Shown here one piece after another: positions 795 to 9,144 of a stretch of DNA of 64,000 nucleotides; within the stretch, counting starts at the first letter, position 1, and every line of letters starts with the position of its first letter. The stretch spans positions 1,300,001 through 1,364,000 of the forward strand of contig NZ_AP025285.1 in NCBI RefSeq assembly GCF_023168405.1, read 5' to 3'. Made by a program: the position numbers and the translations under genes. The notes under the pieces are model-generated. The model was not told the DNA's origin. It made no database searches and worked only from the letters and a program-made list of their open reading frames with translations. This stretch comes from Leptogranulimonas caecicola (GTDB lineage: Bacteria > Actinomycetota > Coriobacteriia > Coriobacteriales > Atopobiaceae).

Positions 795-889
795 CCCCTG
801 AGCGCGCCTGTGCCGGTTGCTCCCTTCTCGCTTGACTGCGGCCCCCAATGCTCGCGCTCTGCCGTTCCCGGCCTCAAAGGAGACGCCCC

Positions 890-2560
890 ATGGCCTCTGC
901 CACGCCTCAAGAATCTCGCGCGCTCACGGGCCGCGCCCTCGTCATTGGCGCCCTGGGCAGCGCGCTGCTCACTGCCAGCTCGCTCTTCATCGCCCTCAAG
1001 ATGGGGGCCCTGCCTTGGCCCATCGTCTTTGCAGCCTTGGCGTCCATCGTCGCCCTCAGGGCGCTGGGCAGCCACAACCTCCACGAGGCCAACGTATGCC
1101 ATGCCGCCATGAGCGCCGGTGCCATGGTGGCCGGAGGGCTGGCCTTCACCATCCCCGGCCTCTGGATGCTTGGCCCTTCCTACCAGGTGACGTTGCCCCA
1201 GGTGCTTTTGGCTTCGCTCTCGGGCACCCTCTTGGGCCTCTGCGCCTCGGCGGCGCTTCAGGCCCACTTCATTCGCGAGCGCCGTCTGGCCTACCCCATT
1301 GGCGTCTCTGCCGCAGAGACCCTCAAGGCTGCCGACGATGCCAAAGCCGGCGACGCCCCCGTGCTTTTTGGGGCCATGGGCTTATCGGCACTCTATGCGC
1401 TGGTCCGCGACAACCTGGGGGTATTGCCCGCCGTCATCGGCACCGGCTCGGTGATCCCCGGCGTCACGCTGGGCATCTACAACTCCCCTATGATGGCCGC
1501 CATGGGCTTCATGGTGGGCGTCGCCCCTGCGCTGGTGTGGTTTTTGGGCGCCCTCGTCGGCAACATTGGCATCGCGGGCATCCTGCCGGCACTGGGGCTC
1601 ATCGCCCAAGAAGACGCTTCGGCCATCCAGTCGAGCCTGGGCCTGGGCCTTATGCTGGGCGTAGGCGCAGGAGCTATCGTCTCCGGGCTGCTTCCCCTCA
1701 TCAAGCGTCGCATGGCTTCAGGCGCCTCTGCTGCCGAGAAGATCTCCGATGCCGAGGCTGCACGTCGCCTCTTTGTCCCCCGCTCTATGGTGGCCCTGGC
1801 CATGGTGGTAGTGGCCACCGCCCTCTGTGTGGGGCTTAACTTGGGGCTGGGGGCCTCGGTGGTCGTCATTGTGGGCGCTTGGTTTAGCGTGTACCTTTCG
1901 GCCTGGCTCACCGGCACCACCGGTGTGAACCCCATGGAGATCTTTGGAGTGTTGGTGCTTCTGTTGGTGCGCCTGTGCTTTGCCCAGATGTCCATGGAGA
2001 GCCTCTTTTTGGGAGCCGCCGTGGTGGCGGTGGCCTGCGGCATCGTGGGCGACGTCATGAATGACCTCAAAGCCGGCGACGTGCTTCGCACCAACCCTCG
2101 CGACCAGTTTATTGGCATGGCGGTAGGCGGCCTGGTGGGCGCAGTGGTGGCCGCCCTCATGCTCATGGCCCTGCTCACCGCTTACGGCGCCGAGTCCTTT
2201 GGCCCCCAGCAATCCTTCGTGGCTGCTCAGGCCTCGGTGGTGGCCACCATGGCCGGCGGCATCCCCCACCTAGAAGTCTTTGTGGCAGGTCTTGCAGCAG
2301 GTCTTGTGATGGCGCTGGCCAAGCTCCCGGTGATGACTTTAGGCCTGGGCGTATACCTGCCCTTCCACATGAGCGCCTGCGCGGGAGCCGGCGCCCTTAT
2401 CCGCATCATCTTTGACGCGCGCCGCAAACACGACGATCCCAAGCGCCGCGCGGCACTGGAAGCCAAATGGCAGGCGGCGGGCTCCGGCCTGTTGGGCGGA
2501 GAGTCTTTGGTGGGCGTGATCAGCGCCTTTATTGCAGTGGCTATGATGCTGGCCGGCTAA
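890..2560 (+). CDS. OPT-family oligopeptide transporter
   Basis: This is a polytopic membrane protein of the OPT family, which imports peptides or metal-siderophore-like compounds by proton symport. The protein (about 556 residues) has more than ten hydrophobic segments. It shows OPT-typical stretches such as the TASSLFIALKMGALPWPI region near the N-terminus, YPIGVSAAETLKA, and MGFMVGVAPALVWFLGA. I chose the ATG at 890 because AAAGGAG lies seven bases upstream; an ATG at 848 would add 14 arginine-rich residues with no ribosome site. The gene stands alone, with a convergent lipoprotein gene just downstream. The substrate cannot be inferred. The length fits the shorter bacterial OPT branch. Confidence 0.88.
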   Translation: MASATPQESRALTGRALVIGALGSALLTASSLFIALKMGALPWPIVFAALASIVALRALGSHNLHEANVCHAAMSAGAMVAGGLAFTIPGLWMLGPSYQVTLPQVLLASLSGTLLGLCASAALQAHFIRERRLAYPIGVSAAETLKAADDAKAGDAPVLFGAMGLSALYALVRDNLGVLPAVIGTGSVIPGVTLGIYNSPMMAAMGFMVGVAPALVWFLGALVGNIGIAGILPALGLIAQEDASAIQSSLGLGLMLGVGAGAIVSGLLPLIKRRMASGASAAEKISDAEAARRLFVPRSMVALAMVVVATALCVGLNLGLGASVVVIVGAWFSVYLSAWLTGTTGVNPMEIFGVLVLLLVRLCFAQMSMESLFLGAAVVAVACGIVGDVMNDLKAGDVLRTNPRDQFIGMAVGGLVGAVVAALMLMALLTAYGAESFGPQQSFVAAQASVVATMAGGIPHLEVFVAGLAAGLVMALAKLPVMTLGLGVYLPFHMSACAGAGALIRIIFDARRKHDDPKRRAALEAKWQAAGSGLLGGESLVGVISAFIAVAMMLAG

Positions 2561-2571
2561 ACGCTCGCACG

Positions 2572-3378
2572 TTAGAGGCAAAAGGCGGGAACCAGCGCGG
2601 CCGGCTCGGTGAGCTGCGGGGTTCCCGAGTAGCCTACCAACAACCCATCCCTGGTCCACCAGGGCTCCGGGGTGCCCTTCCAGGTACGCTCATAGGAAGG
2701 GTCTTGGGCAAAGCCCTCATAGAGGGTGCCTGTGGCGGGCAAATCGGGACGCGCGTTAAGGCCGATCTCTCCATCCGACAAGAGCCACAACGAGTCCTCG
2801 CAGCTCTCCAAGGCTCCCTCATCGCTGCGGTAGGCCTTGCGCACAGAGACTATGAGCTGAGGAAGGCCGTCCGGCAACCCAGGCAAGATATTCTCTGCAA
2901 GATGGGTGCGCGCCACCGAATCCACCCAGCTTTCGGCAGGTACATCGCCATAAGAAGAGGTGTCTGCCGCTGCCAGGGCGGCAAAAGTGAGGCCGGCCAT
3001 GCCAGAGCCATCGGCCTTGGGGTCATGAAGGATCCCCACCAGGCCAAAGGGTACCTCCACCCCGTCGATGGTGACCGGCCGAGGGGTGGTCGCCAGGTTT
3101 CCCTCGTCATCTACAAGGCCATAGCCGCGGGCAATGGTGGCGGCGCTCTGGGCATCTTTGGCAGCCGAGAGCGCTTGGGCCATGCGAGCCAGCTCCTCCC
3201 AGGAGTAGCTGGCAAGGTCTTTTTGCGCCGGCGCGCCCCAAGAGCAGCCGCCTAGAGCTGTAGTGCTCAGAAGGCTCAGCGCGGCCGCCAGAAACCCTTT
3301 GCGAGAAACCGGTGCCCGAGCAGTAATCGCACGCAGGGACGGGCTCTCGCGGCGAGCGGTTAGAGGTTTTGGTCCCAT
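2572..3378 (-). CDS. Lipoprotein with DUF6273-like C-terminal domain
   Basis: This is a predicted secreted lipoprotein of unknown function. Residues 1-26 are basic, followed by a hydrophobic stretch and the lipobox ALGGC (Cys near residue 45), so it should be lipidated and held on the outer face of the membrane. The C-terminal third has SLWLLSDGEIG and ends PAALVPAFCL, a pattern I associate with DUF6273 surface domains; that assignment is from memory of the pattern. AAGGGAG lies seven bases before the ATG, inside the end of dgt, and the two genes overlap by 19 bases, so they are probably translated from one mRNA. Convergent with the OPT transporter gene. Confidence 0.7.
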   Translation of the reverse strand: MGPKPLTARRESPSLRAITARAPVSRKGFLAAALSLLSTTALGGCSWGAPAQKDLASYSWEELARMAQALSAAKDAQSAATIARGYGLVDDEGNLATTPRPVTIDGVEVPFGLVGILHDPKADGSGMAGLTFAALAAADTSSYGDVPAESWVDSVARTHLAENILPGLPDGLPQLIVSVRKAYRSDEGALESCEDSLWLLSDGEIGLNARPDLPATGTLYEGFAQDPSYERTWKGTPEPWWTRDGLLVGYSGTPQLTEPAALVPAFCL

Positions 3379-4646
3379 GGGCCGGCTCCCTTGCCAAAGA
3401 AGTAATCATGCTGAGGAAACGCCTTTGCGGCGGCGGGATCCAGCCGCTCGGCCAGAGCGATAAAGTAGTCGTCGGTCATGCCGGCGATGTAGTCCACCAC
3501 CGTTTGATCCAAGTCACGCTCCCAGTCGTAGGTGCGGCCGTAGTAGGAAAGGCCGGCGCGAATGGGGTCGATGTGGTGGACAAAGATAGGCGCCTGAGTG
3601 TTGCCGGCCGCCAGATCCTGGTACGCAGACTCGTACGCCAGCTCGAAGAGCCCTGAGAGAATCTGGGCCCCTTGAGTGCCTGCCACCTCGGTAGAGGCAT
3701 AGATCTTACGGTAGTTTTCCTGTTTGGCGCGGCGGAGCTCCTCGAAGCCCCCCTGGCTCATGGCGATGCGCGGCTGGCCCAACGAGTGCGCCACCACATC
3801 GGAGATGAACGCGTCCAGCGCCCAGGAGTTGTAGGCGCCGCCCAGCCCGTCATCAAAGGTGTCTTCGCCCACATGATGGGCGCGGATGGCGTCTTGGCGA
3901 TCTTTGCCCACATAGGCGATGATGTCCGAGAGGCGCACCACGCAACCCTCCAGCGTCATGGGGCGCTGGGCGCGCACCGTCTTTGAGTTGCCGGCGGTGC
4001 AGGCTGCAGCGACCGCAGCATCGAACTCATCAAAGGTAGAAATGCCGGAGACCTGAAACTCCCGCTGCTCGTACTCGCCGTTGTGGCAAAGCACCCCGTC
4101 CAGCGTCTGCAGGGTGAGATTGCGCCCGTAGATAGCGTCCAGCACCCTTACCGAATGCACGTTATGAAAGAAACGGCGCCCGGTGCGGCGGCGGTAGATG
4201 CCATCCAAAAAGCGCTCCCCCGCATGGCCAAAAGGGGTGTGCCCAATATCGTGACCCAGGGCGATGGCCTCGATAAGGTCGCAGTTAAGGTCCAGGGCGC
4301 GCCCGATGTCGCGCGCCACTCGACTCACCAGTTGCACGTGGAGCCCGCGGCGAGAGAGGTCCTCGTCGGCGTGGAAGCTGAACACCTGGGTCTTTCCTGC
4401 CAAGCGATTGTAGGCGGGCAGGTGGAGAATCTTCTCGGCATCGCGCATGAACGCCGGCCGCAGCGGCGTGGGCCTATCGCGGGGCTCATCGAGCCTGCGC
4501 AGCGCGTCCTCATTCTTGGTGGCGTAGGGGTTCTGGCCGGGATGGGCCACGTGATCTGCGATGAGAGCCTGCACCTCTGGGGAGAGGGGCCTGGCCAGAT
4601 CGGGCGCCAAGGGGTTCTTGCGAGCCGTGGTGATAGGGTCTGCCAT
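3360..4646 (-). CDS. dgt: dGTP triphosphohydrolase-like HD-domain protein
   Basis: This enzyme hydrolyses dGTP (or other dNTPs) to the nucleoside and triphosphate and controls dNTP pools. The HD metal site is seen as HDIGHTPFGHAGE, with upstream Arg/His-rich RLAGKTQVF and SRVARDIGRAL typical of the dGTPase family. I chose the ATG at 4646 because GAAAGGAGG lies just upstream; this gives about 428 residues. The longer frame from 4685 has no ribosome site. It follows the SGNH/ATP-grasp gene by 42 bases on the same strand and overlaps the lipoprotein gene downstream, which suggests a three-gene operon. One copy of the recurrent TGCCGATAA motif lies between it and the upstream gene, and one TGCCGAGAA lies within it. 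Confidence 0.9.
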   Translation of the reverse strand: MADPITTARKNPLAPDLARPLSPEVQALIADHVAHPGQNPYATKNEDALRRLDEPRDRPTPLRPAFMRDAEKILHLPAYNRLAGKTQVFSFHADEDLSRRGLHVQLVSRVARDIGRALDLNCDLIEAIALGHDIGHTPFGHAGERFLDGIYRRRTGRRFFHNVHSVRVLDAIYGRNLTLQTLDGVLCHNGEYEQREFQVSGISTFDEFDAAVAAACTAGNSKTVRAQRPMTLEGCVVRLSDIIAYVGKDRQDAIRAHHVGEDTFDDGLGGAYNSWALDAFISDVVAHSLGQPRIAMSQGGFEELRRAKQENYRKIYASTEVAGTQGAQILSGLFELAYESAYQDLAAGNTQAPIFVHHIDPIRAGLSYYGRTYDWERDLDQTVVDYIAGMTDDYFIALAERLDPAAAKAFPQHDYFFGKGAGPWDQNL

Positions 4647-4688
4647 AGGGATCCTCCTTTCTTCCTTGCCGATAAAAACTAACACCCT

Positions 4689-7637
4689 TTATTGCTCGTT
4701 TTGTGGGGTGTCCAGAGACTTTAAGGAATCGGAAGCGATGAAGGCCCCCATGTTGAGGCGGCCAGCGGCCTCAGAGATGGTGGCCGAGGCGCCGCAGCGG
4801 GTGAAGACGCCTGCGAAGCGCCCGCCAAAGAGGTAGAGGCCTTCCATAAAGTGAGCCTTGATGCGTCCGGAGGCCTGGGTGCCGTCGCCCGCTGCCACCG
4901 ATCCCACGATGACCTCGCCTTCATACTGAGGTGCATAGGCCTGGATGACGGCCCCTGAGGCAGCGCCGTCACGCAGCGCGTCTTTCCACGCCACCTCGCT
5001 CACGTCGAGGCCAGCGACAACCCCTTGGCCGTTGTAGCCCTCGGCAGGCTTTAAGATCCAGGCATCCTTGTCGGCGAAGGTGGAGAGATCGCAATCTTTG
5101 GCAAGGATCTGGGTGTAGGGCACGTGTCCTTGGACAAAGGCCAGCTCCGAGGCGTCCAAGACTTTAGAGGCCAGCGGCGAGTGCAGATAGGCGAAGACCG
5201 TCTTGGTGGCGCAGGGCCAGGTGCGAAAACCGCCCACCACGCATGCCAGGCCCTCCTCGGCTGCCAAAGCCAAGGCATCGGCGCCGTCGCAGGGCTTCTC
5301 CATCATCTCCGAAAGCACTGCCCGGCGCCACACCAGGTCGATGGGCCCTTGGTCGTCTTTGAGACGCCAATGGCCCCCCACCTCGTCGAGCGCCAAGGAC
5401 CGTAGGTCTGCGATGCGCGCTGAGACCCCCAGCTCCGAGAAGATCTCACAGAAGTCTTGGGCTTCGTCTACAGACAGCGACTCGGTATAGTCCACGATGG
5501 CAAGGGTGGGTTTCTCGGCAGGATAAGGCTCTTGACCTGCCTTTTCCCAGGAAGCGTAGCAGTCAAGGATCTCGCGGGCGCAAAGCGCTCTCACAGATTC
5601 CGGCGCGCGAAGAGGCGCCTCTTTCGAGAGTTCTTTAAAAGTTTCGCTCTTTTGGATAGCGGCGGTCACCTGGTCTGTGGCGGTCATGCCGGCAGAGCCG
5701 TCGGTGTTGAGCTCACAGAACCAATAGGCCCCGGTGTCCTCGTTCAAGAAGATGTCCACCCGCGCCAGAGGGATCTCGCACTCATAACCTGGGTCGATGC
5801 GGCAAAGCTCGTCCACCTGGGCCGGCAGGGCGAAAAAGTCGCGCACCTCTTGAGAGTCCCGGTAGGCTCGCGTGACCTTGGTCATGATGGAGCCCATGGT
5901 CTCCGCAGCCTCCCGGAGCACCTCCCAGCCGGCCTCGCTGTAGATCTTGGGAGTAAACGCCCAGCTCAGAGGCTCATGATGATAGAGACCGTGGGTGGTG
6001 GCCAGATAGGCTTTGCCGGCTGCACGGCCCTCCTCGTCATCAGCTGGCAGCTGAGACGCCAGCTGGTTGAACCGCGCCTCCAAATCGCGCCCCTGACGCA
6101 CGGCCGCTTGGCGTTCAGCTGGCGTGAGCCGAGAAAAGCCTGCCTTTTGAGCGGCAGCCGGCTGGGACGGCTCTGACGTGTGGGTGACAGGGGTCTCAGG
6201 CTCTGGAGAGGCTGCCGGGTGAGAGGGCACGGGCTTCTCGGCAGCTGGCACCTCAAGCTCCGGGGCAGTCACAGGTGCAGGGGAAGCCGCAGGCTGCGAA
6301 GGCCCGCTCGCCTGGGCGGCAGCGTCGCTCAGCACGGGAGCCGGGGCGATGGGATCTAGGTGCCGGACAGGGGCTGCCGGTGCCAGGGCCGCAAAGTCCA
6401 GAGGCTCCATGCCGGTGGTGTCGATGGAATCTACCTCTTCGGGCGGTGCTGAGCAGCCGCGCCCCTGGCCGGCCTTCTCTTGGAGGGCCTCGCGAATCTT
6501 GGCATGGCGGCGCGCCTCGCGAGCAGCCACCGTGTCGATAGGCGGCTCGCCGTCGAGCACGCGTCCGCATCGAAGGCCCATAAGGCGGCCACCGCGGCGA
6601 GAGGGATGGTCGGCGTCGGCAAAGTAGCGATCGCGGTTTTCCAGCAGCACCGAGCCGTCCTGAAAGCGCATGTTTGGGTAGCGCCCACAGGCTTCTTGGA
6701 TAAACCCTGGAATCAGATCATAGGCGGCGCCCTTGGCGGTGGGATAGGCCTCCTCGTCATGGGGCGTGGGGCTTGCCACCACTATTGGGGTCTCTGGCCA
6801 GAGCTGGGCGATGCGGTGAAAATAGGAAGCGATTTCACGTTTGACCACCGCGGGGTTCCAGCGCTCGAAGCGGTAGTTGGCCCCCAGCCCCACCCACACG
6901 TAGGCCGGAGTGGGTAGCTGCTGCAGGCCCTCCAGGGAACTCGGTTGAAAGACTTGACCACCCACACCTTGGTTTACCAGGTATAAAGATCGCTCTTGGG
7001 CAACGATGGAGGGCCACGCACAGGCAGGGTCGTCCACCAAAAAGCCCTGGGAGATAGAGTCTCCCAGCACCAGCAAGAGGGGCTTGGGCGCCACTGGGGA
7101 CAGATAGGTGCCGTCACAGGATAGGTTCTTGATCTTGCAACCTCTGAGCATGGGTAGCCAGAAGGTCACCTGCCTGGGTTCCTCCATGCCCGGAAGCACG
7201 GGGTCGCGCTGGCTATCCTCCACTTTTACCACCAGCTCCACCGGTTCGTTCCCGGGCATCTGGGGAGGCAGATGAAGCCCGTCTGCCGTCACCGAGATGC
7301 CATCGTGGGACAGAGAGGAAGGTCCGCCGTCTGCCAGCCTGATCTGCGCTGTGGTGCCCTGGGGTTCAGGGTCCACCTGGAGCTCCAGCGCCACCCGTTG
7401 GGCGTCGGTCAAGCACTCTACGGTAATGCCCGCGCAGGTGAGGCCCATGGCATGGTACAAACCTGGATGCCAGGCCATGCAGCTGGAGAGGGCGCGCAGC
7501 TGCTGCGGATAAAACCTCAGCGGCCGCACCCAGCCATCGGGTTCCTGCTCAAAGGTCACCGCGCCGTGGACAAAGGCGGCCGCCCCTTGAGAGTGCGACC
7601 AGGAGGCATCGATCGTCTGCCAGAAGCTCTGGGTCAT
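4689..7637 (-). CDS. SGNH/GDSL hydrolase fused to a glutathionylspermidine-synthase-like ATP-grasp domain
   Basis: This large protein (982 residues) joins two enzyme classes. Residues 1-180 look like a beta-rich N-terminal module. Residues 185-390 are a SGNH hydrolase with GDSISQG (Ser194), GLGANY and a DADH motif (Asp341/Asp343, His344) as the catalytic Asp-His. Residues 395-500 are a Pro/Ala/Ser linker with repeated SQPAA and ASPEP units. From about 500 to the end is a circularly permuted ATP-grasp fold: IPLARVDIFLNEDTG, FCELNTDGSAGM, WILKPAEGYNGQG and RIKAHFMEGLYLFGGRFAGVF. In known proteins the first domain hydrolyses esters and the second makes amide bonds using ATP. There is no signal peptide, so both act in the cytoplasm. 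It lies upstream of dgt. No clear ribosome site precedes the ATG. Confidence 0.8.
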   Translation of the reverse strand: MTQSFWQTIDASWSHSQGAAAFVHGAVTFEQEPDGWVRPLRFYPQQLRALSSCMAWHPGLYHAMGLTCAGITVECLTDAQRVALELQVDPEPQGTTAQIRLADGGPSSLSHDGISVTADGLHLPPQMPGNEPVELVVKVEDSQRDPVLPGMEEPRQVTFWLPMLRGCKIKNLSCDGTYLSPVAPKPLLLVLGDSISQGFLVDDPACAWPSIVAQERSLYLVNQGVGGQVFQPSSLEGLQQLPTPAYVWVGLGANYRFERWNPAVVKREIASYFHRIAQLWPETPIVVASPTPHDEEAYPTAKGAAYDLIPGFIQEACGRYPNMRFQDGSVLLENRDRYFADADHPSRRGGRLMGLRCGRVLDGEPPIDTVAAREARRHAKIREALQEKAGQGRGCSAPPEEVDSIDTTGMEPLDFAALAPAAPVRHLDPIAPAPVLSDAAAQASGPSQPAASPAPVTAPELEVPAAEKPVPSHPAASPEPETPVTHTSEPSQPAAAQKAGFSRLTPAERQAAVRQGRDLEARFNQLASQLPADDEEGRAAGKAYLATTHGLYHHEPLSWAFTPKIYSEAGWEVLREAAETMGSIMTKVTRAYRDSQEVRDFFALPAQVDELCRIDPGYECEIPLARVDIFLNEDTGAYWFCELNTDGSAGMTATDQVTAAIQKSETFKELSKEAPLRAPESVRALCAREILDCYASWEKAGQEPYPAEKPTLAIVDYTESLSVDEAQDFCEIFSELGVSARIADLRSLALDEVGGHWRLKDDQGPIDLVWRRAVLSEMMEKPCDGADALALAAEEGLACVVGGFRTWPCATKTVFAYLHSPLASKVLDASELAFVQGHVPYTQILAKDCDLSTFADKDAWILKPAEGYNGQGVVAGLDVSEVAWKDALRDGAASGAVIQAYAPQYEGEVIVGSVAAGDGTQASGRIKAHFMEGLYLFGGRFAGVFTRCGASATISEAAGRLNMGAFIASDSLKSLDTPQNEQ
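5508..5520 (+). repeat. Recurrent motif GGGTTTCTCGGCA
   Basis: One of six exact copies of this 13-mer in the window; here it lies inside the ATP-grasp coding region, where the gene-sense strand encodes Ala-Glu-Lys-Pro. Confidence 0.6.
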
Positions 7638-7803
7638 AGAGATCCCATCGACGGTAATCTATCGTTCTTGAGGCGCCCCACGGGCTCTTTGGAGCACCAG
7701 CCAGGAGCATCCCTGCATCTAGCCATTGTCGCATAACGGCAAAGCCAAGCCCCCTCTGGGTAAAAAGCCAAGCAACCGGGCAACAGGCCTGAGGCGATGG
7801 CGC

Positions 7804-7816
7804 GGGTTTCTCGGCA
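7804..7816 (+). repeat. Recurrent motif GGGTTTCTCGGCA (intergenic)
   Basis: An exact 13-mer copy between two divergent genes. It precedes the membrane-protein start at 7893 and is not coding if that start is right. Confidence 0.65.
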
Positions 7817-7892
7817 AGGTGGCTACAAACCCCTGGCCTCAATGCTTGAGCATCCTGGTGAGCAAGGCACACGCGGGGCAAGGAGCGCATTT

Positions 7893-8495
7893 GTGGACGT
7901 AGTCATCAGGCTCTTTCTGGTGCTAGGGACCCTCTATGTGGTGGGCGACATCATGTACAGCCAGAGCGGCCCTAGGGCTCACTGGCGCATCTTTCGCGTG
8001 GTCATGGAGTTTTGCCTCATCATGGTGGCCAACGCCCTTATCATGACCGGACTGGTCTCTATATTCTATGTACTAGAGCGGGTGTGCGCCCAGCTGTTTC
8101 CTGGGTTTGACCTCTACCTTACAGAGTCTGGCAAGATCAGCGGCTCAAACATCATGGTGCTCATCTTTGTGCTGGTGTTTCTTACGGCCTTCATCCAGCT
8201 GTTTTTGCGCAAGCGCATGGAGGGTCATTGGTTGTGGCTCTCCATGAACGACGAAGAATACCAGATTTTTGAGTACTTTATCCAGTGGACCACCATTTTT
8301 TGCGTGGTCTACCAGTGCTTCTTTGACGGCTTTGCCACCTTGGCCCAATGGAGCGGCGCCACCAGCGCCCAGGAGGTCTTCCAGATTGCCCTCTCGCCCA
8401 ACAATCTCAACCTGGTGATCCAGCCTCTGCTCATCTCTAGCTGGATCCTGGTGGTGCTGGAGCGCACCAGCTCAGAGCGCCACAGCGACTCCTAG
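7893..8495 (+). CDS. Predicted multi-pass membrane protein
   Basis: I do not recognise this family. The protein has about 200 residues with roughly five hydrophobic segments: near residues 3-18, 35-58, 86-106, 123-145 and 172-190. A hydrophilic loop contains LRKRMEGHWLWLSMNDEEYQ. I chose the GTG at 7893 because CAAGGAG lies seven bases upstream; the longer frame from an ATG at 7797 would add 32 polar residues with no ribosome site and would absorb the recurrent motif. It is divergent from the SGNH/ATP-grasp gene and convergent with the frameshifted PH-like gene. Nothing in the context points to a function. Confidence 0.6.
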   Translation: MDVVIRLFLVLGTLYVVGDIMYSQSGPRAHWRIFRVVMEFCLIMVANALIMTGLVSIFYVLERVCAQLFPGFDLYLTESGKISGSNIMVLIFVLVFLTAFIQLFLRKRMEGHWLWLSMNDEEYQIFEYFIQWTTIFCVVYQCFFDGFATLAQWSGATSAQEVFQIALSPNNLNLVIQPLLISSWILVVLERTSSERHSDS

Positions 8496-8549
8496 CCGTT
8501 AAAACGTTGTGCGCAGTCCTGTGAGCGGCACCCTCTTTGTACTGCTCCC

Positions 8550-9144
8550 CTAGCGCCTCTTCTTTTTGGGTGGCACATAGGTGCGCTGGGGCTTTACCAG
8601 CTTGGGGTGGTAGGCGGCGATGGCCGCCTACCACCTCGTCCTCTGTATAGGAGCCCGGAAGGCCGGCCACCCTGATCTCCACCAGTGGCAAGTGCTGCTC
8701 CAAGCGCGAGGTCATGGAGGCAGCGGCGCCTTCTGGAGCTCGCTTAATGAAGTCCTCGGGATCTTTGAGATCCACCACCAGGTAGTAGCCCTGGCGCACC
8801 TTCCAGCGATAGGCCGCCTTGATGTCGTCCCAGGATATGAGGCCGGCGCCAAAGGTGGAAGAGGTGTTGTCGGTGATGCCGCGCTCATCCACCTCTAAGG
8901 CATAGGTGTGCTCTGGCCTCATCTTGAGCGAGATGAGCACCGTAGCCGTACCCACTGCCACGCCTACCAGCGAGGCCCACGTGCGCCAGGGAGCGGCATC
9001 GTAGGCGCCCAAGCTGGTCACAAAGATGACGAGCGAAAGCACTGCGATTCCCACGCCTATGACAATGAAGAGATTCTCCCGAGTCTTGTCTTGGGGAATG
9101 CGCAGGGGTTCTGGGGCAACGGTCGTCTTTGGGGTGGTGGACAT
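8550..9144 (-). pseudogene. PH-like (STM3941-type) membrane protein with a frameshift near its C-terminus
   Basis: The N-terminal part has two hydrophobic segments (residues about 24-45 and 55-72). A PH-like region follows, with VDERGITDN, ISWDDIKAAYRWKV and YLVVDLKDPEDFI, resembling the STM3941 family. After TEDEVV the frame shifts. Removing one C at 8627-8628 restores AAIAAYHPKLVKPQRTYVPP followed by a basic KKKRR end and a stop at 8550. As read, the frame runs on to 8437 as an unlikely tail. The lesion lies in an inverted repeat (GGTAGGCGG and CCGCCTACC), so it may be a true slippage event or a sequencing error. Function unknown. Confidence 0.65.

Follow-up and report, generated by a model that had tools for sequence, protein, structure and literature searches.

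A protein of Leptogranulimonas caecicola that joins an SGNH enzyme to a ligase of the glutathione-synthetase fold

The locus and the fusion protein

The window, i.e. the whole 64,000-nucleotide stretch of DNA that was analysed, belongs to a genome represented by a 2.0-Mb single contig. It carries a gene for a protein in which an SGNH hydrolase and an ATP-grasp ligase are joined by a linker (Table 1). The initial annotation had proposed such a chain, with a Pro-rich joining segment and with a dGTPase and a lipoprotein as neighbours, and all these elements are found at the locus; the linker is rich in both Pro and Ala. Three genomes from two genera, namely the window genome, genome G001 of the same genus and genome G022 of another genus, carry the fusion in frame, which rules out a sequencing error as the origin of the join. 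Separate genes are frequent among the relatives, yet the join is conserved in the two genera. A search for further fusions, suggested in the initial annotation, also revealed a single chain with a GNAT acetyltransferase domain between the SGNH and ligase parts (genome G038, locus L046; one species). A triple fusion of SGNH, MazG and ligase, guessed from frame lengths, was rejected; the extra domain is GNAT.

Table 1. Features of the fusion gene and its surroundings; domain borders are approximate
Feature	Position in window	Strand	Residues	Basis or remark
OPT-family oligopeptide transporter gene	848..2560	+		
Lipoprotein, DUF6273	2572..3378	-		Pfam; same strand as fusion
dGTPase-like HD phosphohydrolase, downstream gene	3360..4685	-		More probable start: the ATG at 4646, which has a ribosome-binding site
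SGNH hydrolase–linker–ATP-grasp ligase fusion	4689..7637	-	982 aa	ORF with ATG start
ATP-grasp ligase domain, glutathione-synthetase/GspS fold	4728..6125	-	505–970	Model, fold searches, predicted catalytic residues
Pro/Ala-rich linker	6126..6542	-	366–504	No Pfam match; least conserved part
SGNH catalytic domain	6543..7082	-	186–365	PF13472 and conservation count; Ser194, Gly227, Asn254, Asp341, His344
Codon of predicted nucleophile, in GDSIS	7056..7058	-	Ser194	Sequence alignment
N-terminal beta-sandwich of SGNH half	7083..7598	-	14–185	AlphaFold2 model; alignment to SsfX3, 4lhs and CE2 esterases starts at model residue 10–21
Divergent neighbour, SA1002 membrane-protein family	7797..8495	+		79 bits
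STM3941-family protein	8437..9144	-		47 bits

Comparison with G001 gave dN 0.040 and dS 0.268 for the SGNH half (dN/dS about 0.15), dN 0.034 and dS 0.333 for the ligase half (about 0.10) and dN 0.119 and dS 0.275 for the linker, the amino-acid identity of which is 0.80. Judging by these values, purifying selection maintains both halves and acts less strongly on the linker. The ligase at locus L092 is 94% identical. No signal peptide was seen by eye at the N-terminus of the fusion. As far as the searches made can tell, the combination of an SGNH enzyme with a ligase of this fold in a single chain is new; no paper describing such a fusion was found in the portion of the literature covered.

The two enzymatic halves

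The SGNH half matches Pfam family PF13472 (Lipase_GDSL_2) with 44 bits against a cut-off of 32.9 over residues 190–350 and contains the Ser, Gly, Asn and His block residues of SGNH/GDSL enzymes together with the D-x-x-H motif. All 33 aligned homologues share Ser194, Asp341 and His344, and 30 of them keep Gly227 and Asn254, which bears out the earlier proposal of an esterase-type hydrolase with Ser194 and an Asp/His pair. The AlphaFold2 model of this half (371 residues, pLDDT 92.5) combines a beta-sandwich with an SGNH domain, the fold of SsfX3-like acyltransferases. Its best fold match is the salicylyl-acyltransferase SsfX3 (3skv; Z 31.8, rmsd 2.9, 325 aligned), followed by 4lhs (Z 28.5) and CE2-type carbohydrate esterases (Z 20.9–24.8); all others listed have Z of at most 19.1. 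The likeness to SsfX3 and the CE2 acetyl esterases extends over the whole chain, with an identity of 18% or lower, and the matched entries, unlike the window protein, are not fused to a ligase. On the best reading of the model, the SGNH half is a putative acyl hydrolase or acyltransferase.

Of 91 Atopobiaceae genomes, 87 contain the family, many of them in the absence of a ligase; therefore, its own job need not involve the ligase. Elsewhere in Coriobacteriales it was found in one of 59 genomes, as a weak match. The window genome also encodes a paralogous SGNH enzyme fused to a MazG pyrophosphohydrolase (L002:1240-3510; genome contig C1, about 475350–477430), directly downstream of mfd. About 20 other Atopobiaceae genomes likewise have a second SGNH copy within a frame of comparable length; MazG was confirmed only in the window genome.

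The ligase half alone has no significant match in Pfam or NCBIfam. The Pfam glutathione synthetase families and PF03738 (GSP_synth) gave no match to it at E values up to 1, and PF14403 (CP_ATPgrasp_2) gave none either. Among its relatives, the protein at L170 reaches PF03738 with 40.3 bits (cut-off 29.3) and that at L074 scores 31.3 against the PF14403 cut-off of 32. When a sequence profile of the ligase was compared with the PDB, only Cp1B (9cjn; E 3.9e-05) and trypanothione synthetase (E 0.0021) fell below 0.01.

The AlphaFold2 model of the ligase half (pLDDT 94.4) matches glutathione synthetase, GspS, YgiC, YjfC and trypanothione synthetase over the whole domain, with Z of 26.2–30.8. Eukaryotic glutathione synthetases give Z of 29–31 (human 2hgs, Z 29.7, 424 aligned, rmsd 3.5; yeast 1m0w; soybean homoglutathione synthetase 3kak, Z 30.8) at 10–15% identity in the fold searches, and the E. 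coli proteins GspS, YgiC and YjfC give Z of 27.6–30.2. A Foldseek search matched 8fbz with E 1.5e-16. Cp1B follows with Z 25.7, and the next family listed has only Z 11.1.

The predicted catalytic residues R626, D628, E642, N644, R772, K812, K863 and R947 are all present. In alignment A1, where 503 has to be added to obtain protein numbers, they are R123, D125, E139, N141, R269, K309, K360 and R444, in the same order and with nearly equal spacing as R125, R267, K305, K364 and R450 of the human enzyme, according to the part of the source available (PMC2845819). The R-x-D ... E-x-N, K, KP and R motifs thus correspond, by order and spacing only, to the catalytic Arg, Mg ligands, ATP lysines and C-terminal Arg of glutathione synthetase. 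Loss of these residues, which the initial annotation had named as fatal to its proposal of a glutathionylspermidine-synthetase-like ligase, did not occur, and the assignment to that fold group holds along the whole length.

E139 and K309 are both kept in 36 of 45 aligned ligases. The other nine, all from genera g4 and g9, have no Mg- and ATP-binding residues; the window protein is not one of them, and decay of its ligase is ruled out. In genus g9 (L066, L068–L071), the Mg-binding Glu and Asn and the phosphate-binding Lys are lost; the decayed ligases still lie beside an SGNH gene and, in four of the five loci, a dGTPase gene. These ligases are possibly pseudo-enzymes with a retained role.

Gene neighbourhood and co-occurrence with glutamate-cysteine ligase

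Thirty-three ligase loci of Atopobiaceae (L032–L052, L059, L060, L062–L071), taken from the 39 ligase-positive genomes of the family, were compared. The usual layout consists of neighbouring genes for SGNH or SGNH-GNAT, ligase and dGTPase. The dGTPase lies downstream of the ligase in 29 of the 33 loci, and an SGNH gene or domain is present in 28; in 19 of these 28, it is fused to or adjoins a GNAT domain, which matched Pfam FR47 and Acetyltransf_1 in the two loci tested. GNAT is the commonest fused partner of SGNH. SGNH-GNAT, SGNH-GNAT-ligase and SGNH-ligase chains all exist, the last in genera g1 and g22. Eight ligase-free loci (L084–L091) all have SGNH next to dGTPase, with GNAT in five. In six Coriobacteriaceae loci (L053, L055–L058, L061), the ligase is near the dGTPase and SGNH is absent, so the ligase–dGTPase pair may be the older arrangement. 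A glycosyltransferase gene was observed upstream of the ligase in Coriobacteriaceae.

The window genome, G001 and G022 each encode GNAT, as identified by Pfam, in a gene of its own away from the locus. When the window-genome copy was compared with nine GNATs fused to SGNH, the G003 domain came closest (41%). Probably, the GNAT part was lost from the SGNH gene, which then joined the ligase gene, and GNAT persists separately.

The OPT-family transporter gene near the fusion is also found in G001, G022, G023, G013 and G041. Some OPT transporters move glutathione, so import of a gamma-glutamyl peptide is possible.

Relatives of the ligase also occur beside glutamate-cysteine ligases of the GCS2 family. 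A scan of genome contigs yielded 189 ligase relatives, with 79 loci kept. Among 36 distant loci (L134–L170 without L146), 15 have GCS2 immediately next to the ligase, and in three of these 15 (L143, L154, L170) the two share an ORF; outside this set, L078 likewise has both in a single ORF. Pfam confirmed GCS2 in L158, L163, L170 and L142 (91–117 bits). NCBIfam places these four and the window-genome copy as relatives of plant-type glutamate-cysteine ligase, below the cut-off, and a PDB search did the same for the L163 and window-genome copies. The window-genome GCS2, encoded at C1:963462-964265 and scoring 88.4 bits, is close to the Brassica enzyme (E 9.8e-27 to 2gwc), but far under the cut-off of the plant-type family TIGR01436 (152 against 463 bits). 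It is the probable upstream enzyme of the ligase. No match to PF02955 (GshB), the prokaryotic glutathione synthetase domain, or to PF04262, the other glutamate-cysteine ligase family, was found in the window genome; PF02955 reached E 0.001 in seven of 150 genomes, the window genome not among them.

Of the 150 Coriobacteriales genomes, 84 have the ligase and 75 have GCS2. Outside Atopobiaceae (n = 59), 42 genomes have both, three the ligase only, two GCS2 only and 12 neither, so that GCS2 accompanies 42 of 45 ligase-positive genomes versus two of 14 ligase-negative ones (Fisher p 3e-8; this and the other p-values are inflated by shared ancestry). Among all 150 genomes, PF04262 was found only in G122 and G130, two of these three ligase-only genomes, which count as one event because both belong to one genus. 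Some glutamate-cysteine ligase is hence present in 44 of these 45 ligase-positive genomes. The 16 Clostridia-type genomes tested include 14 with ligase and without GCS2, and all 14 contain PF04262; this count concerns ligase-bearing genomes only. In two Clostridia (L197:64-1476 and L198:28-1476), a distant GCS2-like protein is directly beside the PF04262 ligase; the L197 copy, with 17.7 bits, is below the cut-off.

Within Atopobiaceae (n = 91), 19 genomes have both, 20 the ligase only, 12 GCS2 only and 40 neither (p 0.014). With the 12 genomes bearing decayed or truncated ligases set apart, GCS2 is present in 17 of 27 genomes with an intact ligase versus 14 of 64 others (p 2.6e-4), a split made in this analysis. 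Residue checks covered nine of the 12 decayed ligases and 19 of the 27 intact ones, the others being classed by genus or length; one of the 19, in G041, has two motif residues changed. The six g4 genomes have no GCS2, nor do three of the five ligase-bearing g9 genomes. Ten Atopobiaceae genomes combine an apparently intact ligase with absence of GCS2, so the substrate of the ligase may be imported or different there. GCS2 lies away from the ligase in most Atopobiaceae; the exception seen is G038, where GCS2 (L046:1538-2881, minus strand) follows the dGTPase and an apparent iron-type alcohol dehydrogenase gene in the same cluster on one strand.

A candidate glutathione-type function and its alternatives

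The preferred reading, which is given about an even chance of being correct, is that the ligase is a glutathione-type gamma-glutamyl-cysteine amide ligase coupled in Atopobiaceae to an acyl hydrolase or transferase. The C-terminal half would be an ATP-dependent amide ligase of the glutathione-synthetase/glutathionylspermidine-synthetase fold, and the plant-type glutamate-cysteine ligase encoded elsewhere in the genome would most likely supply it with gamma-glutamyl-cysteine. The ligase would activate the cysteine carboxylate of this dipeptide as an acyl phosphate and then join it to an amine; glycine as the amine would yield glutathione and another amine a glutathione analogue. The N-terminal half would be a cytoplasmic enzyme of the SsfX3/CE2 type, moving or removing an acyl group by a Ser-His-Asp mechanism. 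Because it is coupled to the ligase and GNAT as adjacent genes or fused domains, it would probably act on the same metabolite pool, by acylation and deacylation; its existence in genomes without the ligase weakens this part of the reading. The joined chain, the fold, the catalytic residues, the gene linkage and the co-occurrence are observed; we infer gamma-glutamyl-cysteine as the substrate of the ligase and, more weakly, a place for the SGNH half in the same pathway. In fold, motifs and genomic tie to glutamate-cysteine ligase, the window-type ligase resembles eukaryotic glutathione synthetase; it differs in lying outside the Pfam families of that enzyme and in its fusion to an SGNH enzyme. 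Speaking against the preferred reading are the ten Atopobiaceae genomes with an apparently intact ligase and without GCS2, the 12 with GCS2 and without ligase, the usual distance between the two genes in this family and the failure of the window ligase to reach GSP_synth or the Pfam glutathione synthetase families. In addition, the closest PDB entry by sequence is Cp1B, an enzyme with other carboxylate substrates.

This match bears on a reading that is rather unlikely, in which the ligase would join another carboxylate to an amine, as Cp1B does, to form a small non-thiol amide natural product and the SGNH half would be a tailoring acyltransferase like SsfX3. Cp1B, from E-64 biosynthesis, has the same fold as the window ligase; according to the available part of its description (PMC12568646), it is a fungal enzyme acting on epoxysuccinate, unlike the substrate proposed for the window ligase. 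SsfX3 as the best fold match of the SGNH half and the GNAT partner fit a natural-product function, whereas the tie of the ligase to glutamate-cysteine ligases and the fact that different genera keep the locus beside the dGTPase, which is not typical of an accessory cluster, argue against it.

It is quite improbable that the protein is bifunctional in the manner of GspSA, with an amide or ester bond formed by the ligase and cut again by the SGNH half, so that the product would be a reversible store. The hydrolase of GspSA is a CHAP-type amidase, and in both GspS/amidase and trypanothione synthetase/amidase it is placed at the same end of the ligase as in the window protein. The comparison fits as regards the fold of the ligase and the order of the domains, and both predicted active sites of the window protein are intact; the amidase part, however, is not matched, as the window protein has an SGNH serine hydrolase and no N-terminal cysteine amidase, and the enzymes resembling the SGNH half in fold have, as far as entry titles tell, esters or thioesters as substrates rather than amides. 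Moreover, the SGNH family is far more widespread in Atopobiaceae than the ligase (39 of 91 genomes) and is most often fused to GNAT; the ligase, in turn, is mostly a separate gene, and its partner outside Atopobiaceae is glutamate-cysteine ligase. Of the interpretation offered in the initial annotation, the real fusion, the intact serine hydrolase and the intact GspS-fold ligase therefore stand, and the making and breaking of one bond is unsupported. Little chance is likewise given to a fusion of no shared function, in which a chance deletion joined operon neighbours whose halves work apart, as the separate genes of most relatives and the long, Pro-rich, fast-evolving linker would allow, but against which speak the joined forms in g1, g22 and, with GNAT in between, G038, and the conserved gene order.

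Relatives of the ligase are accompanied by the enzyme producing the glutathione precursor, which suggests that a pathway of thiol synthesis has been overlooked in gut anaerobes. More broadly, and with considerable doubt, an unrecognised glutathione-type thiol route may exist in Coriobacteriales (Collinsella, the Eggerthella family and Olsenella-type bacteria) and several Clostridia, combining a plant-type or GshA-type glutamate-cysteine ligase with the eukaryotic-fold ligase; Atopobiaceae might acylate and deacylate the thiol by means of the ligase-wired GNAT and SGNH enzymes. The literature search, in the parts of the sources it covered, found no glutathione-type pathway in Coriobacteriales. 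The available portion of a survey reports known glutathione genes (gshA-gshB) in only one actinobacterium and the main small thiol as unknown in many prokaryotes (PMC6282198). Its queries, as given there, were only the E. coli and cyanobacterial gshA and gshB, so a pathway of the present type would have escaped it (PMC6282198).

With a second family of ligases linked to glutamate-cysteine ligases, common gut anaerobes would possess a route to thiols that surveys of this kind overlook. With the ligase and the acyl enzyme on one clonable gene, a direct test is possible. If the proposed route is true, the main small thiol of Atopobiaceae would be a new acylated gamma-glutamyl compound.
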